Of a stretch of 52,515 nucleotides of DNA, positions 7,442 to 26,282 are shown one piece after another (within the stretch, counting starts at the first letter, position 1; each line of letters opens with the position of its first letter). Origin of the DNA: Bacteroidota bacterium. GTDB taxonomy: Bacteria > Bacteroidota > Bacteroidia > Chitinophagales > Saprospiraceae. The notes under the pieces were generated by a model that made no database searches, was not told the origin of the DNA, and saw nothing but the letters and a program-made list of their open reading frames with translations. The DNA is taken from NCBI GenBank assembly GCA_029567325.1, contig JAKQLF010000248.1, positions 1 through 52,515 on the forward strand, read 5' to 3'. Both the position numbers and the translations under genes were made by a program.

Positions 7442-7753
7442 GATTATATATTTTAAATTATTAAATGCTTTATATTAGATAGTCTCATCTCATTAATTTG
7501 TTCAATTATAGTTTTCTTGCAATTATCTTTCTTTAAATGAAAATTTACCACTATTCCACCTCTAATAGTTGAAAACTCTTAGCTAGGAAAATACAATGAA
7601 GCAACTATTCTGATCAATCCATATTCCGTTTGGTATATATTCTCAAAATTGCAAAACATTGTGATTGGAAGAAGGGTTATACCTTATGTGACCAAAAAGT
7701 TTGGTTACCGCCATTCAAAATCAAATTCCGAAATCAATTAAAGCAATTATTTT
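7442..7753. other. Divergent spacer, DUF1328 to EEP gene
   Basis: No coding frame. It contains the GAAC-N20-TCTA box of the DUF1328 gene at 7476-7503. I see no clear promoter for the rightward EEP gene. Confidence 0.4.
7476..7503 (-). promoter_or_regulatory. GAAC-N20-TCTA box upstream of DUF1328 gene
   Basis: On the minus strand GAACAAAT begins at 7503 and TCTA ends at 7476, with exactly 20 bases between GAAC and TCTA. The box ends 35 bases before the ATG at 7441. The same pattern precedes the genes starting at 8948, 17350 and 26218. It resembles ECF-type promoters, in which GAAC is the core of the -35 element and TCT part of the -10. Confidence 0.55.
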
Positions 7754-8695
7754 TTGAAAATAATATTCACAGCTTTCCTATTCATTTTGACTATCCTACC
7801 TTTTAGCAAAAACAGAAGTTGGATTTTCAGAATGCCCCTCTATTTGAGTTTACAAGTGCTTGTGATCTCTTTTATATATTTTATTTATTGTATCATCACC
7901 TTATCAGATTCATACGATTGGTTATATCTTATACTACTCTTGTTTGTTTTAATCATCCAGCTAAAAAGAGTACTGGGTTTTGCCTTGGACTTCAGAAGGC
8001 AAGTACCCAATTATGACCCTTTGAGCTTTTCATCCAATACATTTTCATTGATATCATACAATGTGTATCAACACAATGAAAAATACGAAGAAGTTGTCTC
8101 CTATCTCAAATCCATCAACTCAGATATCTTGTTGCTCATGGAAGTTGATGATCTTTGGGCGCAGAAAATTAAAGCTTTAGAATATTCTTACGGCGTGAAT
8201 GTGCCTTTGGACAATACCTATGGTATGATTTTACTTTCTAAATATCCAATCATAAAAAGTGAAATTCTATATCGGGTAGAGGAAGATGTGCCTTCTATTG
8301 TTGCAGACATTAAAATCGGAGAAAAAGTAGTTCATTTTTGTACTGCCCACCCAAGACCGCCTGTCCCTCCAGAAAGTGATTCTTCCATTCCCAAAGAGTT
8401 GGAATTGATTCACCTTGCAAACTCCCTCAAGCAAGTACCCCACAACCATATTTTGGTGGTAGGTGATATGAATGATGTGCCTTGGAGTTCCAGTTCAAAA
8501 AAATTCAAAAAATCAACCAAACTCAAAGATCCAAGAATTGGTCGTGGTTTGTTTGGCACTTTTCCATCCTATTTTCCCATCATGATTCCATTAGATCACA
8601 TCTATTGCTCAGAGGACTTTTCTGTCAAAGAAATCAAAACGCTGGCTGCAAATGGTTCTGATCACTTGCCCATCTATGTGGAATTTGGACTTTAG
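7754..8695 (+). CDS. Membrane-anchored endonuclease/exonuclease/phosphatase (EEP) family protein
   Basis: A 313-residue protein with three N-terminal hydrophobic helices (about 2-17, 28-50 and 55-75) and an EEP catalytic domain from about residue 95. Visible family motifs are SLISYNVYQHNEKYEEV (metal-site Asn), LLLMEVDD (metal-binding Glu), TAHPRPP (His), VVGDMNDVPWS (the D-x-N motif) and NGSDHLPIYV (catalytic DH near the end). The domain is expected to hydrolyse phosphodiester or phosphomonoester bonds at the outer face of the membrane; the substrate is unknown. There is no ATG before residue 27, so I use the TTG at 7754, which keeps the first helix; an in-frame stop lies just before it at 7739. 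No frameshift is needed to explain this. Confidence 0.85.
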   Translation: MKIIFTAFLFILTILPFSKNRSWIFRMPLYLSLQVLVISFIYFIYCIITLSDSYDWLYLILLLFVLIIQLKRVLGFALDFRRQVPNYDPLSFSSNTFSLISYNVYQHNEKYEEVVSYLKSINSDILLLMEVDDLWAQKIKALEYSYGVNVPLDNTYGMILLSKYPIIKSEILYRVEEDVPSIVADIKIGEKVVHFCTAHPRPPVPPESDSSIPKELELIHLANSLKQVPHNHILVVGDMNDVPWSSSSKKFKKSTKLKDPRIGRGLFGTFPSYFPIMIPLDHIYCSEDFSVKEIKTLAANGSDHLPIYVEFGL

Positions 8696-8745
8696 TATGA
8701 AGTAAGTTTATCTAAAAAATAAATTTCTGTACTTAAGATTCAAAC

Positions 8746-8767
8746 AAAGGTCCATACAAAGACCTTT
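8746..8767 (+). terminator. Weak hairpin after the EEP gene
   Basis: A 7-bp stem (AAAGGTC at 8746-8752 against 8761-8767) with an 8-base loop, followed by only a short T run. It could be a weak terminator 50 bases after the EEP stop. Confidence 0.35.
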
Positions 8768-8896
8768 TCAAAAAAAAACATAACATCAATTCGCTTTTGA
8801 ATTAAAAATTGAAGACATTTTAAGTCATACCTGTCTCATTTATGAAATATTAGCAGCGCTCTTTCTTCATAAATAGCCGAAGTAACAATTATAATG

Positions 8897-8924
8897 GAAC
8901 ATTTTTGATCAAAATTGATATCTG
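8897..8924 (+). promoter_or_regulatory. GAAC-N20-TCTG box upstream of GH13 gene
   Basis: GAAC at 8897-8900, exactly 20 bases, then TCTG at 8921-8924, ending 23 bases before the ATG at 8948. Same layout as the boxes at 7476, 17372 and 26255. The last base differs (G rather than A or T). Confidence 0.5.
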
Positions 8925-8947
8925 ATTAATTACAAAAAAAAATAGAT

Positions 8948-10750
8948 ATGGAACAAGATATCCTGACAAATAATCATTTAGAATTGGGTGCAAGCCCCAA
9001 TGAAAATGGCGTTTATTTTCGTGTTTGGGCACCTCATGCAGATAATGTTTCCGTCGTTGGTAATTTCAATGACTGGAATGTCGATGCCAATGAGATGGTT
9101 ACTGAAGATGGTGAATTTTGGAGTATCCAAATAGAAAACCTTAAAGCAGGAGATGAATATAAATATGCCATCAAGACAAAATCAGGTGATATCTTACATA
9201 GGAATGACCCACGTGCAAAATTATTGACCAATAGTTCTGGTAATTCCATCGTTTACCAAGATAATTTTGACTGGGAAGATGACCATTTCCAATTACCTCC
9301 AATGAATGAATTGATCATATATGAGATGCACATTGGCACTTTTCATGCAAAGACAAATGGTCAGCCAGGTGATTTCCACACGGCGATTGAAAAAATAGAT
9401 CATTTGGTCAACATAGGTATCAACTGTGTAGAAATTATGCCTGTCAATGAATTTGCGGGCGACTTTTCTTGGGGATATAATCCCGCGCATCCATTTGCAA
9501 TAGAGTCCGCTTATGGAGGGCCAGATGCTTTCAAGGCATTCGTCAAAGCCTGTCATCAAAAGGGAATTGGTGTCATTTTAGATGTGGTTTATAATCATTT
9601 TGGCCCATCAGATATGGATCTTTGGCAATTTGACGGTTGGTCAGAAAATGGAAAAGGAGGTATTTATTTTTACAATAATTGGAAGTCCACCACACCTTGG
9701 GGTGATAGCCGACCAGATTATGGGAGGAATGAAGTGAGGTCATATATCCATGACAACGCGATGATGTGGTTGAGAGAATTTAGATGTGATGGTTTGAGAA
9801 TGGACATGGTGCCTTACATCAGAAATGTTCATGGCAATGAATCTCCAGACGCTTCCATTGAGGAAGGTTTCACTTTATTAAGATGGATCAATGACTCTAT
9901 TCATGAAGAATTTCCAAATAAAATAACCATTGCTGAAGATTTACACGGCAATGATTTCATTACAAGAAATACAAGTGAAGGAGGATGTGGGTTTAGCGCT
10001 CAATGGGACGCAGATTATGTACATCCAGTAAGGCAGATGTTGATAGCTGGGAATGATGATGACATGAATTTTGAAAACATCTTTACAGCTTTGACCAGGA
10101 GATATAGCAATGATACTTATAAAAGAATAATTTACACAGAATCACATGATGAAGTAGCCAATGGTCGTGCTAGAATAACCACTGAAGTGTGGCCAGACGA
10201 TCCTCAAAATTACTATGCCGTCAATAAAGCTGCACTTGGACTCTGTCTCACACTTACTGCCCCCGGAATACCAATGTTGTTTCAAGGTCAAGAAATGTTG
10301 GAAGACAATTGGTTTGATGATCAAGATCCTATTGATTGGAAACTATCAAAATTGAATGCTGGATTTGGAAATATGACCAGGCAGCTCACGGACTTCAGAG
10401 CCAACCGCTACGGTAATACCAAAGGTTTGACGGGAAGTAATATTCAGATTTTACACAGTAATATGGCTGATAAAGTTATAGCATTCCAGAGAGTTTATGA
10501 AGATATGGATAAAGACAGCGTGATCATCATATTCAATTTCTCCAGCAATAGCTATGATTCATACAGTCTTCCTAGTCCTTTGACCACTGACGTAGAACAA
10601 GTATTTTGCCTGGGAGACAAAAAATATCACAAAGAACTTCAGGCTGACAAGGATCCACATTTCATCGAAAACTTGGTGAATGAAAATGGAAGGAGCATTG
10701 TGTGCCACTTGAGTCCATTTGATTGTCACATATTAGCTGTAAAACAATAA
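8948..10750 (+). CDS. GH13 alpha-glucan enzyme with CBM48 (branching enzyme / trehalohydrolase-like)
   Basis: A 600-residue cytoplasmic enzyme. An N-terminal CBM48/E-set domain covers about residues 12-105 (VYFRVWAPHADNVSVVGNFN). A GH13 barrel follows, with the four conserved regions: DVVYNH near 212-217, DGLRMD near 281-286 (nucleophile Asp286), IAEDLHGND near 328-336 (acid Glu330) and TESHDEV near 397-403. A small beta domain ends the protein. The CBM48-GH13 layout and the IYEMHIGTF segment fit glycogen branching enzymes and maltooligosyl-trehalose trehalohydrolases; I cannot choose between them, so no symbol is given. A GAAC-N20-TCTG box lies just upstream, and an SDR gene follows 113 bases later. 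A role in storage glucan or osmoprotectant metabolism under stress is inferred. Confidence 0.85.
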   Translation: MEQDILTNNHLELGASPNENGVYFRVWAPHADNVSVVGNFNDWNVDANEMVTEDGEFWSIQIENLKAGDEYKYAIKTKSGDILHRNDPRAKLLTNSSGNSIVYQDNFDWEDDHFQLPPMNELIIYEMHIGTFHAKTNGQPGDFHTAIEKIDHLVNIGINCVEIMPVNEFAGDFSWGYNPAHPFAIESAYGGPDAFKAFVKACHQKGIGVILDVVYNHFGPSDMDLWQFDGWSENGKGGIYFYNNWKSTTPWGDSRPDYGRNEVRSYIHDNAMMWLREFRCDGLRMDMVPYIRNVHGNESPDASIEEGFTLLRWINDSIHEEFPNKITIAEDLHGNDFITRNTSEGGCGFSAQWDADYVHPVRQMLIAGNDDDMNFENIFTALTRRYSNDTYKRIIYTESHDEVANGRARITTEVWPDDPQNYYAVNKAALGLCLTLTAPGIPMLFQGQEMLEDNWFDDQDPIDWKLSKLNAGFGNMTRQLTDFRANRYGNTKGLTGSNIQILHSNMADKVIAFQRVYEDMDKDSVIIIFNFSSNSYDSYSLPSPLTTDVEQVFCLGDKKYHKELQADKDPHFIENLVNENGRSIVCHLSPFDCHILAVKQ

Positions 10751-10863
10751 AAGTGGGTTTATTGGAGCATTTTCATTGGTTTCCACAATTTCCTTTTAAA
10801 AATGACCATTAACTTAGTGTTTCCTTTATTGCTTATATTTATTAATGACCAAAAAATATAATT

Positions 10864-11667
10864 ATGAAACTTATCAATCAAACTTGTTTGGTTACAGGAT
10901 CAAGTTCAGGGATTGGCAAAGCAATTGCTCGTAAAATGGCCATGGAAGGAGCCAATGTAATCATCAATTATTACAGCGATAAAATTTCAGCGGAAGAACT
11001 GGCTCATGATCTGGAAGAAATTTCTGTTGATAACGAAATGTTGGTCGTGAAAGGTGATGTATCAAAACAAAAAGACGTTGAAAACATTTTCAAAAATACC
11101 ATCGATAAATTCGGTGCATTAGATATTCTGGTGGCGAATTCAGGTATTCAACAGGATGCACCGTCACATGAATTGACACTTGAGCAGTGGAATAGAGTAA
11201 TTGAGGTAAATCTGACCGGACAATTTCTGTGCGCACAATCAGCCATCAAATGTTTTTTAAACCAAGGAATGAGGCCTACAATTTCAAAGGCAATGGGCAA
11301 AATTATACATATGAGCAGTGTACATGAAATCATCCCATGGGCTGGTCATTTAAACTATGCTTCATCCAAAGGAGGACTTTTGATGTTGATGAAAACTTTA
11401 GCACTGGAATATGGAAAACACAAAATAAGAGTCAATAGCATCGCACCAGGAGCCATTCAAACATCCATCAATGAAGAGGTGTGGTCTTCCAAAAAAGGAA
11501 TGGAAAACTTACTAAAGCTGATTCCATATGGTCGAATAGGTCAAGTTGAGGATGTTGCGAATGCAGCTGCATGGCTTGCATCTGACGAAAGTGATTACGT
11601 GACCGGCACAACGATTTTTGTTGATGGCGGAATGTCTTGTTATCCCGGATTTCTGGACAATGGATAA
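10864..11667 (+). CDS. SDR-family oxidoreductase (glucose 1-dehydrogenase-like)
   Basis: A 267-residue classical short-chain dehydrogenase/reductase. The NAD(P)-binding TGSSSGIGKA motif is at about residues 11-20, the NSG equivalent of NNAG near 95-97, the catalytic Ser in HMSSVHE, and YxxxK as YASSK. C-terminal SIAPGAIQT and the final FVDGGMSCYPGF match glucose 1-dehydrogenase-like SDRs, a group often found among general stress genes. The substrate cannot be read from sequence. It follows the GH13 gene by 113 bases without a visible terminator, so the two may share the GAAC-N20-TCTG promoter. Confidence 0.88.
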   Translation: MKLINQTCLVTGSSSGIGKAIARKMAMEGANVIINYYSDKISAEELAHDLEEISVDNEMLVVKGDVSKQKDVENIFKNTIDKFGALDILVANSGIQQDAPSHELTLEQWNRVIEVNLTGQFLCAQSAIKCFLNQGMRPTISKAMGKIIHMSSVHEIIPWAGHLNYASSKGGLLMLMKTLALEYGKHKIRVNSIAPGAIQTSINEEVWSSKKGMENLLKLIPYGRIGQVEDVANAAAWLASDESDYVTGTTIFVDGGMSCYPGFLDNG

Positions 11668-11738
11668 TAATAAATAAATGTTTAACCACTATTAGTAGTA
11701 CCTTTACTAAAGGAATAATTGATAAAATTGAAGCTTTC

Positions 11739-12281
11739 ATGGTAGAAAATGAATCATTAAATATCGCAATCATTGATGATAATGAAGGAGATATCATCAT
11801 CATAAAAAAGCATTTGGAAAGTATTTTTGCAAATGCAGCTTTTGTAACGGCTGATTCTAAAAAAGCATTTGAGGAAAAAATTCAATGGATGGAACCTCAC
11901 ATTGTTTTGAGTGATTACAACTTGCCAGATTGCACTGGTTTGGATCTGCTTTTATATACAAAGCAACACTACCCTTCTGTACCGTTTGTATTCATCACAG
12001 GCATGCTCAATGATGAGGAAAAAACTGCTGAAGTAATCCTAAATGGGGCAAATGGTTACATCTTGAAACAAAACGTCCACACTGTTGGACCAAAAGTGGA
12101 GGAAACGCTGCTTAAAAACAAAGCCATGGTTTCAGAAAACGATCTCAAAAGGAGAAAAATGGACGAGCTTTCTATGGGACTCGACAAATTGAAGCAATTC
12201 ATTATAGATAATAAAGACCACTCAGCACTTTTAGAGATTGTCTCAGAATTGGAAGCAGAAGCCAAGTTTTTAAAATTTTAA
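11739..12281 (+). CDS. Single-domain response regulator with helical C-terminal tail
   Basis: A 180-residue protein. The receiver domain shows the acidic pair Asp13-Asp14 (IIDDNEGD), the phosphoacceptor Asp59 (VLSDYNLPD), the switch Thr in FVFITGML and the conserved Lys in GYILKQN. After about residue 125 comes a charged helical tail with no recognised output domain. The start is the ATG at 11739; the frame runs back to 11637 but would overlap the SDR gene, and the receiver fold starts at this ATG. It lies directly upstream of a histidine kinase and a second receiver gene, so a phosphorelay among the three is likely. A diverged paralogue lies at 21553-22083. Confidence 0.85.
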   Translation: MVENESLNIAIIDDNEGDIIIIKKHLESIFANAAFVTADSKKAFEEKIQWMEPHIVLSDYNLPDCTGLDLLLYTKQHYPSVPFVFITGMLNDEEKTAEVILNGANGYILKQNVHTVGPKVEETLLKNKAMVSENDLKRRKMDELSMGLDKLKQFIIDNKDHSALLEIVSELEAEAKFLKF

Positions 12282-12303
12282 TCAATCGTAACCTTTTATA
12301 GTT

Positions 12304-13734
12304 ATGAAAGAAACATTAGCTAGAGAAAAAAACGTCCTCAATTCTACCTTTTTTACCATTTTCTCCTTAGTTGTACTTCTTTCAGCAATCTTATTATTAT
12401 CCATAGTAGAATCTCATTACTTTAATAAATTGAGGTTATCCCATAATATCAATTATCATTTATATGATTATTTTGGTTTAATACAAGATGCGGAAACTGG
12501 ACAAAGGGGGTATGCCTTGACCAATGATGAGACTTATTTGGAGCCCTATTACACCTCCCTTTCAAAAATTAAAAAAAAGGAACAAGAAATTACTGTAGCC
12601 ATAAATCAGGATGTAGATCGTTCAAGGCAGTTTAAACAAATTCTTGCCTTAAAAGAAACAAAAATTCAGGAGCTCATTCATACCATTTCATTGATGAAAC
12701 TTGGTAAAAGAAAGGAAGCCATAGACATCATCAATTCCAATACCGGTTTGACAAATATGACCCAAATCCGCTTGCTTATTGGTGATTTCAAAACTCAGGA
12801 AAGATTGAGAACTACCCAAATTAGAGAAACATATTATCGTTATAAAAATATCATTTACGTACTTTTTGTGGTGGCTTTAATTGTCACTGGATTTAATTAT
12901 TACAACTTAAGGGCTCAAATTACTCCTTTGATTGCCCACCTCAAAAACGTGAACGGCAACCTTCAGAAAACTGTCATTGAAAAGGAAACTGAAATCCAAG
13001 AAAGAATGAGGGTTGAAGCAGAAAACACCAAATTGCTGCATCATTTAAATCAAAAAAATCAAGAACTCAATCATTTTGCTTACATCGCAAGTCATGATTT
13101 ACAAGAACCTTTGAGGACGATCAAAAACTTTATCAATTTATATGAAGAGGAGTATGGGGACAATCTCAATGAAGAGGCGAAATCTTATTTTGATTTTATC
13201 ATCAAGGCTAGCAATAGAATGTCCAAACTTATTCATGGTTTATTGTTGTATTCCAAGATTGGTTCGTCTGCCTCCTTTTCCAAAAACGACATCAATAAAT
13301 TGGTAGAAGAAGCCAAAGAAAACTTAAAAACACTTTTGGATGAAAGGAAAGCCATTATTGAAGTAGCGGATTTGCCAACCATTGAGGTGTACAGGATAGA
13401 AATGGTGCAACTTTTTCAGAATCTTATCCAAAATGCAATAAAATTCTGCCCGGGCAAACAACCACAGATCAAAATTGGTTATAAAGAACTAGCCAATGAA
13501 CACGAATTTGTGGTGTCAGATAATGGCATTGGAATGGAGCAAAAAGATGTTCAAAAAATATTCAATATGTTTGCCAGGCTTCACAATGAAAAGGAATATG
13601 CAGGGCAAGGAATTGGTTTGGCTTTTTGCAAAAAAATTGCAGAGCTACATGGAGGTAAAATCACTGTAGAAAGTCAATTAAATAAAGGAACTTCATTTTA
13701 TATAACCATATCAAAAAATGTGGAGCATGTTTAA
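12304..13734 (+). CDS. CHASE3-domain sensor histidine kinase
   Basis: A 476-residue membrane sensor kinase. Transmembrane helix 1 is at about 14-34. An extracytoplasmic CHASE3-type domain covers about 40-180 (DAETGQRGYALTNDETYLEP is typical). Helix 2 is at about 182-200, followed by a coiled coil at about 212-256. The HisKA domain has the phosphoacceptor His264 in IASHDLQEPLRT. The HATPase domain has the N box (LIQNAIKF), G1 (DNGIGM) and G2 (GQGIGLAFCKK). The receptor signal is unknown. The next gene, a receiver protein, overlaps its 3' end by 17 bases, which suggests translational coupling and a cognate pair. Confidence 0.92.
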   Translation: MKETLAREKNVLNSTFFTIFSLVVLLSAILLLSIVESHYFNKLRLSHNINYHLYDYFGLIQDAETGQRGYALTNDETYLEPYYTSLSKIKKKEQEITVAINQDVDRSRQFKQILALKETKIQELIHTISLMKLGKRKEAIDIINSNTGLTNMTQIRLLIGDFKTQERLRTTQIRETYYRYKNIIYVLFVVALIVTGFNYYNLRAQITPLIAHLKNVNGNLQKTVIEKETEIQERMRVEAENTKLLHHLNQKNQELNHFAYIASHDLQEPLRTIKNFINLYEEEYGDNLNEEAKSYFDFIIKASNRMSKLIHGLLLYSKIGSSASFSKNDINKLVEEAKENLKTLLDERKAIIEVADLPTIEVYRIEMVQLFQNLIQNAIKFCPGKQPQIKIGYKELANEHEFVVSDNGIGMEQKDVQKIFNMFARLHNEKEYAGQGIGLAFCKKIAELHGGKITVESQLNKGTSFYITISKNVEHV

Positions 13735-14152
13735 AAAATTACAAAAAATAATGTTGGTAGACGATTCAGAATCAGATAATTATATACATGCAAAAAAAAT
13801 TGCAAAAGCTGATGTTACTAATGATATCATTGTAAAATATAGTGGTTTTGAGGCTTTGGAATACCTTTGTACAGCTGATGATGATGACAATTATCCAAGA
13901 CCAGAATTGATTTTTCTCGACATCAATATGCCTGGAATGAATGGCTGGGAGTTTATGGAAGCTTATGATGAAATTGATGAAAAAATGAAGGCCAATGTGG
14001 TCATCACTATGCTTACCACATCGATTGCCGACACAGATAAAGAAATCGCATTGAAACGGAGTGGCATCAATGCCTACGAGAATAAACCTTTGACCGAAAA
14101 AAAACTATGGAATGTTCTGGAGAAATTTTTTCCAGACCGGTTTGAGGAATAA
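13718..14152 (+). CDS. Response regulator, Rcp1-like single receiver
   Basis: A 144-residue receiver-only protein: acidic pair in IMLVDDSESD, phosphoacceptor Asp68 in LIFLDINMPGMNGWEF, Thr in VITMLTTS, and Lys in YENKPLTEK (KP motif). There is no DNA-binding domain, so output is by protein contact or phosphotransfer, as in Rcp1-type regulators. It overlaps the kinase gene; an alternative ATG three codons later (13727) would reduce the overlap to 8 bases. It is the likely direct partner of the CHASE3 kinase. Confidence 0.9.
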   Translation: MWSMFKKLQKIMLVDDSESDNYIHAKKIAKADVTNDIIVKYSGFEALEYLCTADDDDNYPRPELIFLDINMPGMNGWEFMEAYDEIDEKMKANVVITMLTTSIADTDKEIALKRSGINAYENKPLTEKKLWNVLEKFFPDRFEE

Positions 14153-14189
14153 TACAAATGACAAAGAGTGAAAACGCTTAAGGTTTAAT

Positions 14190-16861: not shown

Positions 16862-17350
16862 TTAAAGACTTACTTTCCCATGTTCATCTTTACTTTCTTC
16901 GTAAACTTCGCCTGTCACGACAGCTTTAGCCATTTTAAATAATTGAAAAACTTTCCAGTCGGGGCTGTCCCAAAATTCTGCTTCTATGGGTACAAATTTT
17001 ATAAGTGCCAGATTTGGACTAGTGGGTCCATCTGGGAACCATGCTTTGGTGAAAAAATTAAATAATTCTTCTTTCTTTAATGGGTCCATTACTTGGTATG
17101 CATGTCCTTTTATGTTCAAAAAAGTGTCATCGCTCGGAATTGAGTAAGACAAGAGTATCTCCGAATCACCTTTTAATTCTTCTACTTTCGTGGAATTTGA
17201 ATCTGTAAAAAACCAAATGTTTCCATTTTCATCATAAGAATTGGTCGCCATTGGCCTCATCTTTACTTCACCTTCTTCAGATTTAGTAATAAACATACAG
17301 GTCCTCATCTTATCAATTATTCCTTTTACTTTATCATGTTGTGCGTTCAT
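16862..17350 (-). CDS. General stress protein 26-like, pyridoxamine 5'-phosphate oxidase fold
   Basis: A 162-residue protein of the split-barrel flavin-binding fold, in the general stress protein 26 (YdaG-like) branch. Recognisable parts are MRTCMFITKSEEGEVKMRPM (first strands), GNIWFFTDSNSTKVEEL, and the C-terminal PIEAEFWDSPDWKVFQLFKM. Members bind FMN/F420-like cofactors; the reaction is not established for this branch. The gene has its own GAAC-N20-TCTT box (17372-17399), 22 bases before the ATG, and its own terminator, so it is a single-gene unit. It is a core member of the proposed local stress regulon. Confidence 0.9.
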   Translation of the reverse strand: MNAQHDKVKGIIDKMRTCMFITKSEEGEVKMRPMATNSYDENGNIWFFTDSNSTKVEELKGDSEILLSYSIPSDDTFLNIKGHAYQVMDPLKKEELFNFFTKAWFPDGPTSPNLALIKFVPIEAEFWDSPDWKVFQLFKMAKAVVTGEVYEESKDEHGKVSL

Positions 17351-17371: not shown

Positions 17372-17399
17372 AAGAGCGCTTAAAATGTTGATTTTGTTC
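17372..17399 (-). promoter_or_regulatory. GAAC-N20-TCTT box upstream of general-stress gene
   Basis: Minus strand GAACAAAA begins at 17399; TCTT ends at 17372; exactly 20 bases lie between GAAC and TCTT. Same layout as the boxes at 7476, 8897 and 26255. Confidence 0.55.
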
Positions 17400-18847: not shown

Positions 18848-18879
18848 GTTGTAATTTAATTGTTAAATAAAAAAGGAAA

Positions 18880-18932
18880 AAAGAGGTGAACAAAAGATAA
18901 GTTATGTTTCGTGACGGGAAGTTCACCTCTTT
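18880..18932 (-). terminator. Terminator after the small-barrel operon
   Basis: A 12-bp perfect stem (18880-18891 against 18921-18932) with a 29-base loop, ending in six T on the minus strand. It lies between the barrel gene ending at 18955 and the OmpA-type gene starting at 18847. Confidence 0.75.
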
Positions 18933-18954
18933 CTATTTTACATATTGATATGTG

Positions 18955-19545: not shown

Positions 19546-19547
19546 TA

Positions 19548-19700
19548 CTATAGCTTATTTAAAACTTTTAAAACGATTAAAACAACTGCAACGATCAGCA
19601 AAAGGTGGATCAAGTTTCCTACAACGGCTCCAAAACCAATAAATCCAAACAACCACCCCACGATAAGTAAAACAATGATTATTGATACGATGTCTCTCAT
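19548..19700 (-). CDS. Small lmo0937-family-like membrane protein
   Basis: A 50-residue protein read from the minus strand: MRDIVSIIIVLLIVGWLFGF, then IGFGAVVGNLIHLLLIVAVV and LIVLKVLNKL. Two hydrophobic helices joined by a glycine turn, with the WLxGF and GxxxHxLL pattern typical of the lmo0937 family of small membrane proteins. These are frequent in stress-responsive loci; function unknown. It lies between a 65-residue membrane protein (33 bases upstream) and the barrel gene (2 bases downstream). Confidence 0.85.
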   Translation of the reverse strand: MRDIVSIIIVLLIVGWLFGFIGFGAVVGNLIHLLLIVAVVLIVLKVLNKL

Positions 19701-19732
19701 AATAATAAAATTTTGATTAGTTTATAAATAGA

Positions 19733-19930
19733 TTATTTCTTTCTGAATATGACGGCCACTATGATCAAAACAACTGCCACCCCGACCCAGAATAATGGGT
19801 TTTCAAAAATAGCAGGTGAGTCATTTCCATCCAGATCAACATCGATGTCTAATCCGTCTTGAGCAGAAAGCATGACTGATGAAAGTGTCGATAAAATAAA
19901 AATTGGTATTCTGAAAATCAGCTTGTTCAT
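19733..19930 (-). CDS. Small exported single-helix membrane protein
   Basis: A 65-residue protein: signal peptide (about 1-24, ending MLSAQ), a short acidic linker (DGLDIDVDLDGND), then one transmembrane helix at about 45-61 (FWVGVAVVLIIVAVIF) and a basic end RKK. The layout predicts a small outward-facing acidic loop with a cytoplasmic tail. No family recognised. It is first in the operon with the lmo0937-like and barrel genes. The long region upstream holds several inverted repeats. Confidence 0.75.
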   Translation of the reverse strand: MNKLIFRIPIFILSTLSSVMLSAQDGLDIDVDLDGNDSPAIFENPLFWVGVAVVLIIVAVIFRKK

Positions 19931-20262
19931 TATGTTGTGTTTTATAATGAATAGCTTGAAGTGAGAAATATGTTTTAAATCGAAAAATTAATTTTAAATC
20001 ACATGTGATTCTCACAATTACTATTGATGTATTAAATTGATTTTAAACACTTTACAAGTTATAATATTTAATTATTTGTATAAATGCATTCAAAATTAAT
20101 TCTAATAAATAAACTTGATTTGTGGCTCAAAAACATCTCTTTTTATTGTTTTAGGTAAGGAGTTTTTTTCTACATGGATACATGTAGGGGTATTTGTCCT
20201 TGCAAACAGTATACAATTTGCAATTAAAAAAAGGTTTGTGGTTATTACATAAAGCATAAAAA
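19931..20262. other. Inverted-repeat-rich regulatory region
   Basis: A 330-base gene-free stretch upstream of the small membrane protein operon. It holds three perfect inverted repeats: a 14-bp palindrome AATCACATGTGATT at 19997-20010, CTACATG/CATGTAG around a 4-base centre at 20170-20187, and TTGCAAA/TTTGCAA separated by 10 bases at 20200-20223. The first two share the ACATG/CATGT core. A TAATTTTG -7-like box occurs on the minus strand near 20091-20098. No GAAC-N20-TCT box was found here. Confidence 0.4.
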
Positions 20263-20292
20263 AAGGGAGTCATTAGCAACAATGACTCCCTT
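20263..20292 (-). terminator. Terminator of the AraC-family gene
   Basis: A 12-bp perfect stem (20263-20274 against 20281-20292) with a 6-base loop, GC-rich in the middle, followed by a T run on the minus strand. It lies 22 bases after the stop at 20314. Confidence 0.88.
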
Positions 20293-20313
20293 ATAAATAA
20301 TATTTATTTTGAA

Positions 20314-21321
20314 TTACTTCTCTGCAAATGTGTCACTGGGTAAAATCCCAAATTCTTCCTTAAACTTCTTACTAAAATGCCCCTTGTTTGTGTAGCCAAG
20401 AATATCTGCCACTTCTCCACAACTCATTTTGCCGTTTTGCAGTAATTTTAAGGCATGATTCATCTTTGCACTGATTGCAAATTGCTTGATTGACTTAGAA
20501 AACATCAATTTAAACCCAATTTGCAATTTTGTAGGATTAAGGCCCACTTTCCTAGCGATCTTTTGTACGGTAGGGGTATTATTTAGGTTATCAATGATGA
20601 TGTCTTTAGCATCCTTAACCCTTTCATAGTCTTCAGCAATGAATTTGTAGTTACTTGTATTTTCCAATTTCTCTTCTCTATATGATTTTAAAAGATCATT
20701 GATCATCGCAAGCGTTTTGGATTCTAGCTCCATTTTTCTTTCCAATCCAATTTTGGAATCTTCTACCAAAGCCAAAATAGATTGTGAAATTTCTGGTAAA
20801 AGCGCACTTTGGAAATATAACGTTTCTTTGGCATGAGCATCTTTGAAAAGTGCCACAATTTCTTGGGGATAAGAGTTTATCTCACACAATACTTTTTCCA
20901 TAAAATCATGACGGTCTACAGCAATTATCACCAACTTCATCACACTATTCTTGGCAATGTTGAGTTTATGGGGTGAATCATGTAAAGGGGCAAAAATCGC
21001 GGATGATGAAGCCAAAATTTCTTTATAAATTGACTCGTCCTCTACAATAAGGCTATTGCTACAATTGAAAAAGAAGTAGATCGGCGGAACTCCTTTGTTA
21101 CTAAAATGCAGTTCCAAATCCTCCTTCATTGTACAATCCATGACAATCGTACTTACTCCATGTTCGAGATCGATTCCAGTCAATTTTCCAATGACTTCTT
21201 CATTCTCTACATTGAGTATGACTTCACCACATGCCGTTTCAAACTTTTGTTTGAAGGCTTTGCTCAATTTCTCAACACCGCCAGCCAATCTGTTGTTATC
21301 TACTAAAAAGTCTATTTTCAT
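20314..21321 (-). CDS. AraC-family transcriptional regulator
   Basis: A protein of about 335 residues. The C-terminal AraC double helix-turn-helix is clear over about the last 95 residues (VQKIARKVGLNPTKLQIGFK, FSKSIKQFAISAKMNHALKL, then GEVADILGYTNKGHFSKKFK and EEFGILPS). The N-terminal two-thirds is not a recognised sensor domain. I use the ATG at 21321 (MKIDFLVDNN); the frame extends to a TTG at 21354. A 12-bp palindrome TTGTTTAAACAA lies upstream at 21338-21349, a possible autoregulatory site. Farther upstream a GAAC-N18-TCTA site (21374-21399) resembles the stress boxes but with two bases less spacing. Confidence 0.88.
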   Translation of the reverse strand: MKIDFLVDNNRLAGGVEKLSKAFKQKFETACGEVILNVENEEVIGKLTGIDLEHGVSTIVMDCTMKEDLELHFSNKGVPPIYFFFNCSNSLIVEDESIYKEILASSSAIFAPLHDSPHKLNIAKNSVMKLVIIAVDRHDFMEKVLCEINSYPQEIVALFKDAHAKETLYFQSALLPEISQSILALVEDSKIGLERKMELESKTLAMINDLLKSYREEKLENTSNYKFIAEDYERVKDAKDIIIDNLNNTPTVQKIARKVGLNPTKLQIGFKLMFSKSIKQFAISAKMNHALKLLQNGKMSCGEVADILGYTNKGHFSKKFKEEFGILPSDTFAEK

Positions 21322-21337
21322 GAACTCGTTTTTTTGA

Positions 21338-21349
21338 TTGTTTAAACAA
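21338..21349. promoter_or_regulatory. Palindrome upstream of AraC-family gene
   Basis: TTGTTTAAACAA, a perfect 12-bp palindrome, 17 bases upstream of the chosen ATG. A possible operator; only the symmetry supports this. Confidence 0.3.
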
Positions 21350-21552
21350 AACAATTTATTAGGCTCTGTGCTATAGACCTTTTCTAGCGTGATTTGTTCG
21401 AAAAGAAATAAAAAAAATTGAAAATTTTTATTTCTTTAGTCAATCGAAACACTCAAAAAAGTCAGTAAAGACACAACTCCTTGATGATATACGAGCAGGA
21501 GGAAGGTTTTGGATTTTTCTAAATCATTTTTTTTTACAAAATATAGCAAGAA

Positions 21553-22083
21553 TCAATACAATTGTTGCAATTCGGTATAAATTTCTGAATGACAGGCTTT
21601 TAGCTTATTATTCTTAGCATTGGATTCCAGTAAATGCCCCATTTTATCATTGAGTAAAAAGAAATTGTCTCTCAATGCCTCGTTTTGCTTCTGCTGTTCT
21701 GCTTCACTTTTTTTGGTCGACAACAACTTATTGGTCAACTTAGTGATTGTTTTTAGGTTATTTTTTAGCACAAAACCAGAAGCTGTGTTGAGAATGGCAG
21801 CAGATTCTATACATTCCTTTTTTAAAGCATAAGTAACAAAGACAAATGGAATTGACAAATTATTTCTTGTATGAATGCAAAACTGAATAGCATTTATCTC
21901 AGGGAGCGCATAATCACAAAAAATCACATCGGGTCTTGTCCATTTTATTTTTTGATCAAATTCTTCTTTTGACCTGCAAAAAAGAAAAGTAGAACTTTTA
22001 AATTCAGACAACAAATTCTCCTTTATGGCAAGAATATCGTCGTGATTTTGGTCAGCAATTAAAAAAGTAGGATCATTAAACAT
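21553..22083 (-). CDS. Diverged response regulator receiver protein
   Basis: About 176 residues from the ATG at 22083; the frame can be extended to a GTG at 22131, but the receiver fold starts here (TFLIADQNHDD). It is a paralogue of the protein at 11739-12281: compare FDQKIKWTRPDVIFCDYALP with FEEKIQWMEPHIVLSDYNLP, and GFVLKNN with GYILKQN. The phosphoacceptor Asp57, the Thr in VFVTYAL and the Lys are kept. The acidic pocket has Asp-Gln instead of Asp-Asp, which may weaken metal binding. A helical tail follows. It lies 169 bases after the thioredoxin-like gene on the same strand. Confidence 0.78.
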   Translation of the reverse strand: MFNDPTFLIADQNHDDILAIKENLLSEFKSSTFLFCRSKEEFDQKIKWTRPDVIFCDYALPEINAIQFCIHTRNNLSIPFVFVTYALKKECIESAAILNTASGFVLKNNLKTITKLTNKLLSTKKSEAEQQKQNEALRDNFFLLNDKMGHLLESNAKNNKLKACHSEIYTELQQLY

Positions 22084-22252
22084 ATAAGCTTCAAGAAAAT
22101 TTGGTGAGGGATACGACAGTTTTCTCTCCACTAAAAAAGGAAATTAAATATCGAGATACAAAATAAAGGTATTGGTAGGTCAGGACATGTACGAAATGAA
22201 ATAATGGTCACTCTTATCGGATTAATTGCAACTCGAAGAATCAATCGCTATT

Positions 22253-22588
22253 TCAGCTTTTATCAATGCAATCTAGGACTTCCTTTTTTGAAAACGTCCC
22301 TTCAATGCGATTGACAATTTCTTGATTCTTTATGATGATACAAGAAGGTACCTTTCTTATCCTGTATTTTGAGAAAAGCTCCTTGTTGTGATCTGCATCA
22401 ATGGTGATGAGTGAGATGTCTTCGCGATCATCTACAATCTTTTGACTCACAATGTCAACAATGGTGGAAGAACTTACCCATTCGGCTGTGAATACCAGCA
22501 CAAGGGGACATTTCTCGCTGTTTGAGATTTCTTTCGAAATCAAATCGGTAGGTGTTGTATTTTCGTCGTAAAATTTTCCCATCTGCAT
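22253..22588 (-). CDS. Thioredoxin-fold protein lacking the CxxC site
   Basis: A 111-residue thioredoxin-like protein. The strand before the active site (PLVLVFTAEW) is typical, but WCxxC is replaced by WVSSS, so no catalytic cysteine pair exists. The cis-Pro loop (VPSCIII), the IDAD strand and the IEGTFSKKEVLDCI end are kept. It cannot be a standard disulfide oxidoreductase; a structural or partner-binding role is more likely. The start is the ATG at 22588, which overlaps the stop of the sigma-54 activator gene by one base (TGATG), showing translational coupling. The frame extends one codon to a TTG. Confidence 0.85.
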   Translation of the reverse strand: MQMGKFYDENTTPTDLISKEISNSEKCPLVLVFTAEWVSSSTIVDIVSQKIVDDREDISLITIDADHNKELFSKYRIRKVPSCIIIKNQEIVNRIEGTFSKKEVLDCIDKS

Positions 22589-24375
22589 CAAAATTGTTTT
22601 GGGTCAATTCCTAGCTTTCTCATTCTTGAAAAAAGCGTTTTGTTATTAATCTCAAGAATTTCAGATGCCGAACCCTCTCCTGATACTTTACCTTTTGTAG
22701 CCTTCAGTACTTTCATGATGTATCTCTTTTGCATTTCATCGAATGAAACAAATGTGTCTTCTTCCTCACTGGTGATTTTACCTGCTTTGTGAAGAAATTG
22801 AAGATCTATGGTATCGTCTTTGGACAAAATAACTCCTCGTTCTATGATGTTTTCTAATTCCCTAATATTTCCTGGATAATGGTATCTAGTAAGAAAACCA
22901 AAATCTTTTTTTGATATGTTGATGACGTTTCTTCCAGTCTTCTTGTTCGTTTTACTTAAAAAATGTTTTATTAGGAGTGGAATGTCCTCTTTTCTCTCTC
23001 TGAGTGGAATATTGTATATGGGGAAAACATTGAGTCTATAATATAAGTCTGATCTGAATGTACCTTCAGTTACCATTTTTTGTAAATCTCTATTAGTTGC
23101 TGCAATTACCCTCACATCGACTTTGATGGTATTGGCATTCCCAATTCTCTCAATTTCACCTTCTTGCAATACTCTTAGAAGTCTAGCTTGCAATGCAAGG
23201 GGCAGTTCTCCAATTTCATCCAGAAATATTGTACCCTGATCTGCGAGTTCAAACTTACCAATTTTTTGCTTGTCTGCTCCAGTAAATGCGCCTTTTTCAT
23301 GTCCAAACAACATACTTTCTATTAATTCTGCTGGAATAGAACCACAATTCACCTTTACCAAAATTTTGTCAGAACGATCACTCAACTTATAAATAGAGTT
23401 ACAAAGCAGTTCCTTTCCAGTTCCCGTTTCACCTAAGATAAGGACTGTAGATGTTGTATCTGCAACTTGGGCAACTTGTGCCAAAATATCTTTATAAGCC
23501 TTACTCTGTGTGATTATGTCTTCAAACTTGAAATTTTCAATGGCCTCTTCAACCAATTGTTCTTTCTGGCTTACTACATCCTCTGCCAGTTTTTCATATT
23601 TCAAAAGCGCATTTTGAACCGGTTCACCGTACAAAGCGATGCTATTTTCACCATAGAATTCTATTCTGTATCTTGCTGGTGCTTGCCGGGTATCATGAAA
23701 AGTAAGGCGTAAATAGCCTTTGATAAAGCCTTCTTTGGGCGACTTCATAATCATCTGCAAGACAGCTTCTTTTGGATCTTCTCCCAATTTTATGAAAGAT
23801 GGCATTACAGGTCCAAGATCAGTCTCAAGGAACAAATCATCCACCTTTATATTCCCTTGCTCATCATTGAGGTGTTTCTTCATGCCTTCATTCATGAATA
23901 TGATCTTGCCATTTTCATTTAAGTAGGCAACTGCATTATTAGTGTTTATATCGTAAGAATAAATTTTAACCTTATCTGAGTCATACTGCTCATGAGCAAC
24001 AGTTTGGGGAGTGATTGTATTTTTTGAATTCTTCTTAAATGCATCCAGTATCACATATAGACACAAGTCTTGGTCAAGTTTAAACAAAAAAACTTTTGAA
24101 CAATCCATTTCATCTATTTCTAGTTGAATCTGGCAGTTTATTTTCTTATGACCCAATTCCTGAACTTCGTTCCATAATTTTTTCCAAGTCATCATGGAAA
24201 ATTCTGGATTGATGTAAAATACGGATGGAGGTTGAGTTTTCATTTCGGAAAGAAATAACTTACTCATGTAGACAATTGCCCCATTTTGATCTACCACGCA
24301 ATAATAGTCTGCTGATGTCGCACTCAATGTAGACATCAAGGTGTCAACATTGGTCTTTATGACTTGTTTTATCAC
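22588..24375 (-). CDS. Sigma-54-dependent transcriptional activator with PAS-like sensor region
   Basis: A 595-residue enhancer-binding protein. The N-terminal half has two PAS-like segments (about 15-112 and 140-245; AYLNENGKIIFMNEGMKKHL is PAS-like), then a coiled coil at about 255-282. The AAA+ domain has Walker A GETGTGKE near 315-322, the sigma-54 contact loop GAFTGA near 362-367, Walker B (GTIFLDEIGEL) and a sensor region (RVIAATNRDLQ). A Fis-type helix-turn-helix ends the protein (NNKTLFSRMRKLGI). No receiver domain is present, so control is through the PAS region or a partner, perhaps the coupled thioredoxin-like protein. The start may be the GTG at 24375 or the ATG at 24336. A candidate sigma-54 promoter lies upstream, pointing the other way. 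Confidence 0.92.
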   Translation of the reverse strand: MIKQVIKTNVDTLMSTLSATSADYYCVVDQNGAIVYMSKLFLSEMKTQPPSVFYINPEFSMMTWKKLWNEVQELGHKKINCQIQLEIDEMDCSKVFLFKLDQDLCLYVILDAFKKNSKNTITPQTVAHEQYDSDKVKIYSYDINTNNAVAYLNENGKIIFMNEGMKKHLNDEQGNIKVDDLFLETDLGPVMPSFIKLGEDPKEAVLQMIMKSPKEGFIKGYLRLTFHDTRQAPARYRIEFYGENSIALYGEPVQNALLKYEKLAEDVVSQKEQLVEEAIENFKFEDIITQSKAYKDILAQVAQVADTTSTVLILGETGTGKELLCNSIYKLSDRSDKILVKVNCGSIPAELIESMLFGHEKGAFTGADKQKIGKFELADQGTIFLDEIGELPLALQARLLRVLQEGEIERIGNANTIKVDVRVIAATNRDLQKMVTEGTFRSDLYYRLNVFPIYNIPLRERKEDIPLLIKHFLSKTNKKTGRNVINISKKDFGFLTRYHYPGNIRELENIIERGVILSKDDTIDLQFLHKAGKITSEEEDTFVSFDEMQKRYIMKVLKATKGKVSGEGSASEILEINNKTLFSRMRKLGIDPKQF

Positions 24376-24505
24376 TTTATGTATTGGTATGTCTTCTAAA
24401 GGTGTAAGATCATAAAATGTTTTCTGCTATTTCAGTTTTTCTGATATTTAATCAGCATTATTTTTAAAATACTATCTATCATATTGATAATCAATTAATT
24501 AAAAA

Positions 24506-24522
24506 TTGGCATGAATATCGCA
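24506..24522 (+). promoter_or_regulatory. Candidate sigma-54 promoter (-24/-12)
   Basis: TTGGCATG-AATA-TCGCA: the GG and GC dinucleotides are separated by exactly 10 bases, as sigma-54 RNA polymerase needs, and 6 of 7 positions of TTGGCAC match. The predicted start is near 24533, 12 bases before the ATG of the small gene at 24545. It lies in the region divergent from the sigma-54 activator gene. Confidence 0.5.
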
Positions 24523-24544
24523 TAGTGATATAAAAATCAATAAA

Positions 24545-24685
24545 ATGAAATCACATCCTATACAAATCCTGAAAGCACAAAATCAATTGATCAACTTGGT
24601 TGAAAGGAAACTCGATTGGTTTTTTGAAGAATTGGTGGAGTTTATAAATCAAGAGGAAGCCAATTTAGCGGACAATGGGCAATAA
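24545..24685 (+). CDS. Small 46-residue protein, possible sigma-54 target
   Basis: A short frame, MKSHPIQILKAQNQLINLVE then RKLDWFFEELVEFINQEEAN and LADNGQ. It is predicted to be one long amphipathic, acidic helix (or helix pair), without a signal or membrane segment. Support for it being real: an ATG right after a well-spaced -24/-12 site, a sharp end before a gene-free stretch, and a codon pattern like its neighbours. No family recognised. It is divergent from the sigma-54 activator and could be its target, perhaps a small protein-binding regulator. Confidence 0.5.
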   Translation: MKSHPIQILKAQNQLINLVERKLDWFFEELVEFINQEEANLADNGQ

Positions 24686-24777
24686 AAGCATTTTTAGTAA
24701 AAGTACAAAAGACCCATTAACAATACTCGTCAATGTGTCTTTCATTTAATGTTTCAAATCAGACTGATTAATTATGC

Positions 24778-25395
24778 TCAAATGGTGTTGGTGGGGCTTA
24801 CTTTTTCAGCTGCTTCTACAACTTCACTATCATTGAAAATGTCTACAATGATTTCCTTTATTTGTTCGAATGCTGCATTTTGTTGATCATCCCAATTTGC
24901 TTCATCGGTGACATTTTCTTCTTCCATTAAATTTTCTAATTTATCCAGAAAGAAAAGTGATTTTATATCACCTTTTATGTGATCTACAATGTATTGATTT
25001 TTGGCCTGCAAACTAGTTTTATAATCCTCTAGGGAAAGTTGGGTTGCACCATCTTCTACATCTGTAAAGGATACAGCTAAGTAGTTTGTAATGAATCCAT
25101 TGAAAAAGGTTTTTTGCCAGAATAAGGCTCCTACGAGTAAAAGTATATGAAACCCCAAAACACATAAAAGTGTGATTAATAGGGAATTAATATAGGAATT
25201 GAGGAAAATCACTGCTATCATCAGTATTAAGACGTATATGATGGCACCAATAAAAAGAAAGAGACCTAGTGTGACAGACCTACTAATAACTTTTGCAGTA
25301 TTTGCAGAAAGCTCAAGTTTTGTCAATTCAATTCTATTGTCGATGTAATCATCGGCATATTGATAAATCTTTCCAATATTGGTAAACCAAGTCAT
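24778..25395 (-). CDS. Holin-superfamily-III-like (PF07332) membrane protein
   Basis: A 205-residue protein with an N-terminal amphipathic helix (YADDYIDNRIELTKLELSAN), two transmembrane helices at about 36-65 and 70-95, and a long acidic cytoplasmic tail. The first 100 residues match the Phage_holin_3_6 family, which despite its name is mostly chromosomal and common in stress loci, often beside YtxH genes, as here. No phage genes are nearby. Function unknown. Confidence 0.8.
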   Translation of the reverse strand: MTWFTNIGKIYQYADDYIDNRIELTKLELSANTAKVISRSVTLGLFLFIGAIIYVLILMIAVIFLNSYINSLLITLLCVLGFHILLLVGALFWQKTFFNGFITNYLAVSFTDVEDGATQLSLEDYKTSLQAKNQYIVDHIKGDIKSLFFLDKLENLMEEENVTDEANWDDQQNAAFEQIKEIIVDIFNDSEVVEAAEKVSPTNTI

Positions 25396-25852
25396 TAATA
25401 CAATTGATAGCAGTGAAATCCTAAAAAATAAAATTAATTAATAATTGCCAAACGGAAATAAATTTCTCAACTTTCTTATCGCTAAATAATAAACCAAGAA
25501 AATCTAATCTTTCCATATTCTTACCAAAATCATTGTCATTGAAGTTTAGAAACCCTAATCGTCGATCACAATGAACCATTATATCTACAATTAATTCCTA
25601 ACCAGCGACTTTGATTTTGTGTGATATAAGTTTAGTAATTATTACTCTTAAATCTCACAAATGGTTTGAATTCTTCAAGAGGAGGTGCTGACATTCAGCT
25701 CTCATTTGGCAAATTAGCCGTTCTGAATTTCTGATTGCTCAAATATCCGAGCGGAAGATACCAATCGGAAATAGAATTCTCCATTATGATATTGCAAAGA
25801 ATTTTTTACAATTTAAATGGCCATTCTATTTTCCGATTGGCATATCAATTAA
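25396..25852. other. Gene-free region with three copies of a 20-base motif
   Basis: No credible gene is seen (only very short frames such as one of 20 codons near 25620-25690 on the minus strand). Three related copies of TRCCAAWCGGAAA(A)TARA are present: plus strand at 25446-25468 and 25759-25782, and minus strand at 25823-25842. The first and last copies face each other like terminal inverted repeats about 395 bases apart; the last two form a long-loop hairpin after the YtxH gene. Confidence 0.45.
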
Positions 25853-26218
25853 TTAAGACATTTTAGCATTGTTACCTGCATGTCTTACAGAAGACTCTGC
25901 TTCTTTCATTCCTTTTACTATTTCATCAGATGCCTCAGACACTTTTGAATTAATTGTTGACTTTACATTGGATGCGAAGTCAGCAACGCTTTGTTTGGCA
26001 GACTCTTTCACAGTTGCAAAATTGTCTTTTGCTGTGTCCAACTTTTCTTTAGCCAGGTCAACGTACTCAGAAGTTGTTGCCTTCAAATTTTCGTTGAGCT
26101 CTTTGGCTTTTGCTGCTGCATTTTTCCTTTGTTCTCTTCCTTTATCAGAATTCAAATAGTATCCTGCTACTGCTCCTGCTGCGATTCCAACAGCTATTCC
26201 TAAAATATTCTTTTTCAT
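25853..26218 (-). CDS. YtxH-domain protein
   Basis: A 121-residue protein with an N-terminal glycine/alanine-rich transmembrane segment (ILGIAVGIAAGAVAGYYLNS, about residues 4-23), then DKGREQRKNAA and a long alanine/lysine-rich helix (KAKELNENLKATTSEYVDLA and on). This is the YtxH (PF12732) pattern, related to general stress proteins of Gram-positive bacteria. A GAAC-N20-TCTA box lies 37 bases upstream, so it is a core member of the proposed regulon. The long helix is LEA-like in composition; a protective or envelope role is possible. Confidence 0.9.
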   Translation of the reverse strand: MKKNILGIAVGIAAGAVAGYYLNSDKGREQRKNAAAKAKELNENLKATTSEYVDLAKEKLDTAKDNFATVKESAKQSVADFASNVKSTINSKVSEASDEIVKGMKEAESSVRHAGNNAKMS

Positions 26219-26254
26219 GATATAAATTTTTATTTTTAATAATCAATTCGACTG

Positions 26255-26282
26255 TAGAAGGCTTATCTGAGTATATTTGTTC
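26255..26282 (-). promoter_or_regulatory. GAAC-N20-TCTA box upstream of YtxH gene
   Basis: Minus strand GAACAAAT begins at 26282 and TCTA ends at 26255, with exactly 20 bases between GAAC and TCTA. Same layout as the boxes at 7476, 8897 and 17372. Confidence 0.55.

Follow-up and report, generated by a model that had tools for sequence, protein, structure and literature searches.

A putative sigma-54-activated ECF sigma factor and candidate GAAC-type promoters before stress-type genes in a member of the Saprospiraceae

Overall organisation of the locus

The stretch of DNA analysed here (the window; 52,515 nucleotides (nt), GenBank contig JAKQLF010000248.1 of assembly GCA_029567325.1, labelled C212) belongs to a 5.8 Mb genome in 402 contigs from the family Saprospiraceae (Bacteroidota). 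It carries a gene for an extracytoplasmic function (ECF) sigma factor, called sigB here (5831..6328, minus strand, 165 amino acids (aa)), a gene for a sigma-54 activator, or enhancer-binding protein (22588..24336, minus strand, 582 aa), and several stress-type genes preceded by elements of the type GAAC-N20-TCT. Judging from these features, we lean towards the view that the block encodes a two-step stress regulator, in which the activator would act through sigma-54 on the ECF sigma gene and the ECF sigma factor would in turn act on the stress genes. The preliminary description of this DNA had proposed an ECF regulon from the GAAC elements; the sigma-54-type promoter before sigB and the sigma-54 activator in the block, both absent from it, extend that claim. 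In what follows, G, L and C denote genomes, fetched loci and contigs, respectively; G000 is the own genome, L061 and L175 are loci of G005, L062 is the locus of a sigB paralogue on C231 of G000, and L164-L169 come from other genera.

The sigB product, the proposed reader of the motif, matches Pfam Sigma70_r2 (2e-15) and Sigma70_r4_2 (4e-15). It has regions 2 and 4 only, as an ECF (group 4 sigma-70) protein does, and of the 25 NCBIfam matches listed, the ECF superfamily model alone reaches its cut-off. No anti-sigma partner is found beside sigB, its neighbours being gene 6617, which has no Pfam or NCBIfam match, and sigA (4831-5415, minus strand; Pfam Sigma70_r2), a rival reader that is followed by a gene for an RskA-like anti-sigma factor (4039-4821, minus strand; Pfam RskA_C). 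For a sigma gene with no adjacent anti-sigma gene, transcriptional control would be the natural switch.

The closest relatives of sigB are the paralogue on C231 (79% identity) and an orthologue in G005 (77%), the next best being at 46%; a scan of named genomes gave one close relative, in HKST-UBA24. The idea that sigB is a unique sigma gene was dropped when the paralogue was found, and 20 places of the own genome match an ECF query. In G005 the orthologue lies in a block with genes for an FMN-like protein, Dps, YtxH, a holin-like protein, the activator, a thioredoxin, a 65-aa protein and an OmpA-like protein. In L164-L169, ECF genes of 38-45% identity stand among genes for YtxH, holin-like proteins, DUF1328, Dps, MscS, UspA, AI-2E transporters and lipoproteins, in varying sets. 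Separately, the second ECF sigma copy (L062:8915-10359) is followed by genes for a 148-aa membrane protein and a lipoprotein that by eye resembles the one after the G005 sigma gene.

A sigma-54-type site and a palindrome upstream of sigB

A sigma-54-type site, TTGGCACGGCTATTGTC (6365..6381, minus strand), with the form GG-N10-GT, lies 53 nt before the sigB ATG. The string TGGCAC..C.ATTG.CT, which we take to be a sigma-54-type site by the GG-N10-GC/GT consensus, stands 51-53 nt before the ATG in three copies, namely sigB, the C231 paralogue and the G005 orthologue, and 54-55 nt above it the same three copies have a palindrome resembling T.CTGA.AT.TCAGAA, one half of which reads TTCTTA in the window. 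This enhancer-like palindrome, TTCTTAAATATCAGAA in the window (6435..6450, minus strand), is the proposed activator site. With up to one mismatch allowed, the pattern TTCTGAWATWTCAGAA, drawn from these very sites, has 4 occurrences in the genome, and 2 of these precede the two sigma copies; the other 2, as well as a third genomic place of the sigma-54 pattern, lie inside open reading frames (ORFs) and were set aside. When perfect 7-nt palindromes before sigma-54 sites were sought, a fitting one was found only in L094, the arms in the window, L061 and L062 being 6 nt long. With fitting palindromes so limited, the support for the enhancer part is confined to the genus and G019.

The sigma-54-type site was scored at 11 ECF loci of three kinds, from the own genus (the window, L062 and L061), reached via the activator (L092 and L094) and reached via linkage to YtxH or DUF1328 genes (L164-L169). 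The weights were fixed beforehand and the threshold of at least 23 was set late; 250 nt upstream were covered (150 nt for control ORFs). A site at or above this threshold is found in 10 of the 11 loci, the window scoring 24.5, against a mean of 0.3 of 11 and at most 2 in 200 shuffles. Elsewhere, 4 of 23 other ECF genes are preceded by such a site, and one of these four (L041) has its place among the cluster ECFs of the tree; for control ORFs the figure is 7 of 210. Of the six loci whose sole selection criterion was linkage to YtxH or DUF1328 genes, five have it, L169 being the one that fails; L165, L167 and L168 had been viewed by eye before this scoring. A stricter sigma-54 pattern within 220 nt is present at 5 of the 30 best-per-genome sigma loci. 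The rpoN gene was found in 10 of the 11 genomes tested, including the own genome. In the tree, the 11 loci do not form one clade yet are clustered (3 changes against a shuffled mean of 9.7), and sigA falls far outside. The HrpL-type feature of a sigma-54-type promoter before an ECF gene appears to be present here.

GAAC-type elements in the window and in other genera

The preliminary description had named four 28-mers of the form GAAC-N20-TCT, before the DUF1328, GH13, general-stress flavin mononucleotide (FMN) protein and YtxH genes, with GAACAAA in three of the four, and two looser relatives, before a gene for an AraC-type regulator (GAAC-N18-TCTA, 21399-21374) and before the gene starting at 26411 (GAAC-N20-TTTA); all of these are present as described when the sequences are re-read, with the GAAC of the last at 26342. 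The number of GAAC-N20-TCT sites in the window is that of chance, with 6 found and 5.66 expected from shuffles. Four of the six start 40-75 nt before an ORF ATG, a range that was picked after the sites were seen and that takes in 1.9% of strand positions (binomial P 2e-6). When all dyads of four bases, a gap of 14-22 and three bases were enumerated over 28 leaders (18 from the window, 8 from L061 and 2 from L062), GAAC-N20-TCT ranked first, in 5 of the 28 leaders with about 0.07 expected from 60 shuffles.

A promoter matrix was built from 12 sites of six other genera, with background base frequencies from the window, and used to rank the window, where genes were mapped up to 29 kb. Six of its top 12 matches fall in the gene-mapped part; five of them immediately precede start codons, and the sixth (25890) lies inside ytxH.

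Leaders of other genera read CGAACA...CGTT[CT]TA, as before DUF1328 genes in G034 and G019 and before MscS genes in G033, G034 and G019. The pattern GAACA-N18/19-T[CT]TA, fixed after inspection, is found in 11 of 37 hand-chosen stress leaders of other genera against 4 of 210 control ORFs, and two of these four repeat genes of the stress set with a different start. The exact GAAC-N20-TCT form is not carried over (2 of 37 stress leaders against 2 of 210 control ORFs), and a variant GAAC-N19-TATAGTG was seen by eye at three genes of G009. In a held-out DUF1328 set of 27 loci, six of which had no ORF parsed, 3 of the 21 leaders have the pattern against 0 of 56 other ORFs; their matrix scores are above those of 40 controls (P 0.029) and of reversed leaders (P 0.051). 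Some held-out genomes share a genus with training ones (G183 with G019; G177 and G253 with G010), and looser patterns tried on these leaders were after the fact.

The family form, CGAACA-N15/17-CGTT[CT]TA, was examined at all 30 loci returned by a family scan, two of which (G034 and G033) are training sites: 14 sites fall within ORFs, and 7 others occupy intergenic DNA no more than 150 nt ahead of an ORF. These 7 precede a YtxH gene (G078), an MscS gene (G033), a 167-aa gene (G034), OsmC-like and baeRF-like genes (both labelled by eye) and two others. A further set of contexts was hand-picked, with G078, G199 and G257 taken partly for a DUF1328 gene on the same contig. The ten places in G019 comprise MscS, DUF1328, a 65-aa protein which by eye is like that of the window, an AraC-type regulator, ORFs of 114, 341, 229 and 100 aa, one place with no downstream ORF and one inside an ORF. 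As a side observation, release-factor-like baeRF genes with the family motif upstream occur in L231, L246 and L250 (G194, G031 and G033, respectively; Pfam was run on L250 only).

Candidate target genes

The strongest site is the candidate ECF-type promoter of ytxH, GAACAAATATACTCAGATAAGCCTTCTA (26255..26282, minus strand), whose gene (25853..26218, minus strand; Pfam YtxH) is a predicted target. It ranks first in the window with the outside matrix, at 19.3 against 14.1 for the best of 8 shuffles; the one ORF overlapping it is a mechanical one of 63 residues. The ytxH gene of G005 keeps the motif (GAACAAATCGAGACATCAATACGCTCT, 63 nt upstream) in a block with the sigB orthologue, and the two best matrix sites of L061 are those of ytxH and a lipoprotein gene. 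The same-genus YtxH leaders of G001, G002 and G003 (3 of 5 loci parsed) score at most 2.2; in these genomes the best sigma match has at most 39% identity. Overall, we take the predicted shared promoter at ytxH to be real.

The DUF1328 membrane protein gene (7277..7441, minus strand; Pfam DUF1328), also a predicted target, is preceded by GAACAAATTAATGAGATGAGACTATCTA (7476..7503, minus strand; matrix rank 4, score 11.3), probably another instance of the shared promoter, and the DUF1328 gene of G005 (L175:2333) is preceded by GAAC-N20-TTTA. Two further predicted targets are likely to have it as well. The gene for the AraC-type regulator (20314..21321, minus strand; Pfam HTH_18) has the N18 variant (21374..21399, minus strand; rank 9, score 9.6), and CGAACA-N16-CGTTCTA lies upstream of a relative of the AraC type found in G019 (26% over 316 aa, E 2e-41). 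The gene at 26411..26941 (plus strand, 176 aa, no Pfam match) has the variant GAAC-N20-TTTA (26342..26369, plus strand; rank 10, score 9.1), whose −10 form recurs in G005 before the lipoprotein gene (L061:6638) and the DUF1328 gene mentioned above.

The predicted target encoding the general-stress FMN protein (16862..17350, minus strand; Pfam Pyrid_ox_like, 4e-42) is preceded by the candidate promoter GAACAAAATCAACATTTTAAGCGCTCTT (17372..17399, minus strand; rank 12, score 9.0), which may or may not belong to the set. Its score exceeds 7.7, the 95th percentile for 210 control leaders; by eye, the FMN leader of G010 reads CGAACA-N16-CGTTGGA and that of G004 GAAC-N19-TTTA. The GH13 site, GAACATTTTTGATCAAAATTGATATCTG (8897..8924, plus strand), is doubtful and probably due to chance: it falls outside the matrix top 30, the best score in its leader is 1.8 (control median −0.7), and no GAAC is found within 170 nt upstream of the G005 GH13 gene. 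The claim of an ECF-type promoter common to these stress-type genes is thus supported overall, by the outside matrix, the G005 ytxH site and the related motifs of other genera, and probably does not extend to GH13.

The sigma-54 activator

The activator (Pfam Sigma54_activat, 3e-72) has an AAA+ sigma-54 interaction domain with GAFTGA at residue 349; a receiver domain was not found in the window protein. An HTH_8 (Fis-type) domain is present in the activators of L164 and L165, which also carry PAS domains; in the window protein none was reported at a cut-off of E 0.001. An activator homologue lies in the fetched stretch of 6 of the 11 loci (the window, L061, L092, L094, L164 and L165); L092 and L094 have no YtxH-type genes in that stretch. 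A search with just the N-terminal part matched 7 of 148 genomes, which means that either the sensor part varies or the query was too narrow.

The G005 activator (L061:10849-12156) reads as two ORFs in different frames, from an assembly error or a real break. In L091:8426-13692 (G107), the activator gene and a gene for a kinase with phytochrome and GAF domains point away from each other, and behind the kinase gene come those for a response regulator and a heme oxygenase (Pfam); L090:8069-14221 (G091) has a similar order with a phytochrome-like histidine kinase, the heme oxygenase being assigned by eye. From this neighbourhood in some members, light or redox may feed the proposed cascade.

Proposed cascade and alternative explanations

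We propose that the activator would sense a signal, bind the palindromes before the anti-sigma-free sigB and drive sigB from the sigma-54 promoter, and that the sigB product would then direct RNA polymerase to the GAAC-type promoters of ytxH, DUF1328, the FMN gene, the AraC-type regulator and the 26411 gene. From the sequence we infer three things: promoter activity, recognition of the promoters by the sigB product and control of sigB by this particular activator.

Several observations weigh against this cascade. On the sigma-54 side, no convincing site is found at L169 (21.0). L025, first counted with the other ECFs, has an activator homologue within 1.5 kb yet no good site (21.5), and adding it gives a fairer figure of 10 of 12. 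The site had already been looked at in five of the 11 loci (the window, L061, L062, L092 and L094) when they were scored, and in both own sigma copies the −12 element reads GT in place of the consensus GC. Linkage is not general, a module gene being present within 1.5 kb at 8 of the 30 best-per-genome sigma loci. On the promoter side, the strict motif GAACAAA-N17-TCT occurs in the own genome at close to random density, with 21 places against 16 for the reversed control; 16 of the 21 lie inside ORFs, and three of the other five (L003, L008, L009, L010 and L018) are window sites. The genome-wide enrichment to which the preliminary description had looked is therefore not seen; for the strict motif, the result is the random density that it had named as refuting. 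YGAACAA-N18-TCTW gives 15 places against 14 for the control in G000 and 11 against 21 in G005. In 398 family genomes, the family form has 232 matches (in 138 genomes) against 694 (in 305 genomes) for a reversed control that carries GC instead of CG and is not a composition-matched null. Apart from ytxH, the window sites have matrix scores that shuffles also reach, so those of DUF1328, AraC, 26411 and FMN rest on position, and rank 2 is taken by a site at 49855 (14.5), beyond the gene-mapped part and also above the best shuffle. Finally, the FMN-protein leaders of G004, G005:C170, G010, G019 and G056 and that of the L061 FMN-like gene score at most 6.5.

On these grounds the exact pattern as a genome-wide regulon, the family form as a family-wide signal and the FMN gene as a conserved target were all rejected, and the near random density of the strict motif makes the regulon look small and local. 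The family form gives 13 matches against 3 control matches in genus g15 and 25 against 9 in genus g6, which are hand sums chosen after the table was seen. The miss at L025 and the count of 232 against 694 lower our confidence both in the cascade and in the wider general-stress reading given below.

It might be asked whether the GAAC promoters are real and are read by another ECF sigma factor, be it sigA, the C231 paralogue or several ECFs jointly. In G005, sigA and its anti-sigma gene stand beside the DUF1328 and GH13 genes (L175), and both the 20 ECF-query places in the own genome and the 79% identity of the paralogue leave room for such a reader. Against this, sigB and not sigA is the best-matching reference for the ECFs beside stress genes in L164-L169, and sigA lies far outside in the tree, though targets may still be common to sigB and its paralogue. 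We regard another reader as unlikely, with sigA still a rival; the 5831-6328 sigma gene, one of the two ECF genes that the preliminary description had considered, is the likelier one, given that the G005 ytxH motif lies in one block with the sigB orthologue.

An improbable alternative concerns the first step, in that the site before sigB would be a housekeeping promoter region resembling sigma-54 by accident. The GT at −12 in the own copies speaks for it, as does TATATTTG just upstream in the window, which we liken to the TAnnTTTG box of Bacteroidota. However, TATATTTG is not kept in the other two copies whereas TGGCAC and ATTG are, and the 10 of 11 loci with a site exceed the 0.3 expected.

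Slightly more improbable still is that the GAAC elements are the chance product of a short AT-rich pattern in a small leader set. The window, genome and family counts and the shuffle-like scores of all window sites except ytxH would fit this explanation. It is countered by the position before the ATG, the first rank in the dyad enumeration, the ytxH site being kept in G005 and ranked first by an outside matrix, and the reversed control not being composition-matched. Least probable is that the AraC-type regulator (20314-21321) or another transcription factor uses the element as its operator, in place of a −35/−10 pair: a site before the AraC-type gene itself and before its G019 relative is what an autoregulator might have, but two short boxes at near-fixed spacing close to the ATG, near an ECF gene in several genera, argue otherwise, and GAACA with CGTT[CT]TA resembles ECF −35 and −10 elements.

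Comparison with known systems

To our knowledge, little is known of how general stress genes are coordinated in Bacteroidota without RpoS, SigB or EcfG. We tentatively suggest, as a possibility that we would not yet call probable, that in some Saprospiraceae a sigma-54-activated, anti-sigma-free ECF factor serves as a general-stress-type regulator over YtxH, DUF1328, Dps, MscS, UspA, holin-like and related genes; it would follow the HrpL plan and be a counterpart of EcfG, RpoS and SigB of independent origin. The chain from activator to sigma-54 site, ECF gene and target promoters makes base-level predictions, is conserved across genera in its predicted parts and is directly testable.

The closest known system in mechanism appears to be HrpRS-sigma-54-HrpL of Pseudomonas syringae. 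There, HrpL (ECF32) is encoded by an anti-sigma-free ECF gene with a sigma-54 promoter under enhancer-binding proteins, and then drives a regulon (PMC8999054; PMC5263251). The likeness is an ECF gene with no anti-sigma gene behind a putative sigma-54 promoter. The differences are the stress-type targets, the Saprospiraceae host and the single activator gene in the block.

EcfG-PhyR-NepR of Alphaproteobacteria likewise places an ECF sigma factor over stress genes (PMC8999054), but EcfG is released from NepR by PhyR, whereas control here looks transcriptional. Among Bacteroidota ECF factors in stress, SigH (ECF114) of Porphyromonas gingivalis and EcfO of Bacteroides fragilis act in oxidative stress, and the control of SigH has been suggested to be transcriptional (PMC8999054; PMC12596196); the main text of PMC12596196 does not contain the terms sigma-54 or RpoN. 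PorXY-SigP of P. gingivalis is a further Bacteroidota ECF sigma factor under another signalling system, in which PorX binds SigP directly and the targets are type IX secretion genes (PMC4800418), in contrast to the transcriptional control and stress-type targets proposed here. A 2025 survey of sigma-54 regulons covers Bacteroidota, and the word ECF does not occur in its main text (PMC12316311). The start-site map of Flavobacterium psychrophilum reports one sigma-54 and seven ECFs; an ECF-type motif whose −10 region contains CGT is tied there to secretion genes (PMC9723704). Among the matches listed for the open-access literature, a scope that leaves out most subscription papers, no paper on such a cascade in Saprospiraceae was found.

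Neighbouring features

A thioredoxin-like gene (22253..22588, minus strand; Pfam Thioredoxin, 7e-10) directly follows the activator gene, and a thioredoxin-like neighbour of the activator recurs in L061, L090, L092 and L164. On the other side, a second sigma-54-type site, TTGGCATGAATATCGCATA (24506..24524, plus strand), precedes a 46-aa ORF (24545..24685, plus strand) that is divergent from the activator and has a weak relative in L090 (44% over 25 aa). Small ORFs of 67 and 61 aa with sigma-54-type sites upstream are also seen near the activator at L091:13774 and L090:14630, respectively. L090 also has a tandem palindromic stretch, rich in AT, of which a near copy stands before the ECF gene of L092, from another genus. 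Lastly, an inverted repeat seen by eye at 18850-18940 of the window, AAAGAGGTGAAC ... GTTCACCTCTTT, lies between the 18955 gene and the OmpA-like gene and may be a terminator or a regulatory hairpin.

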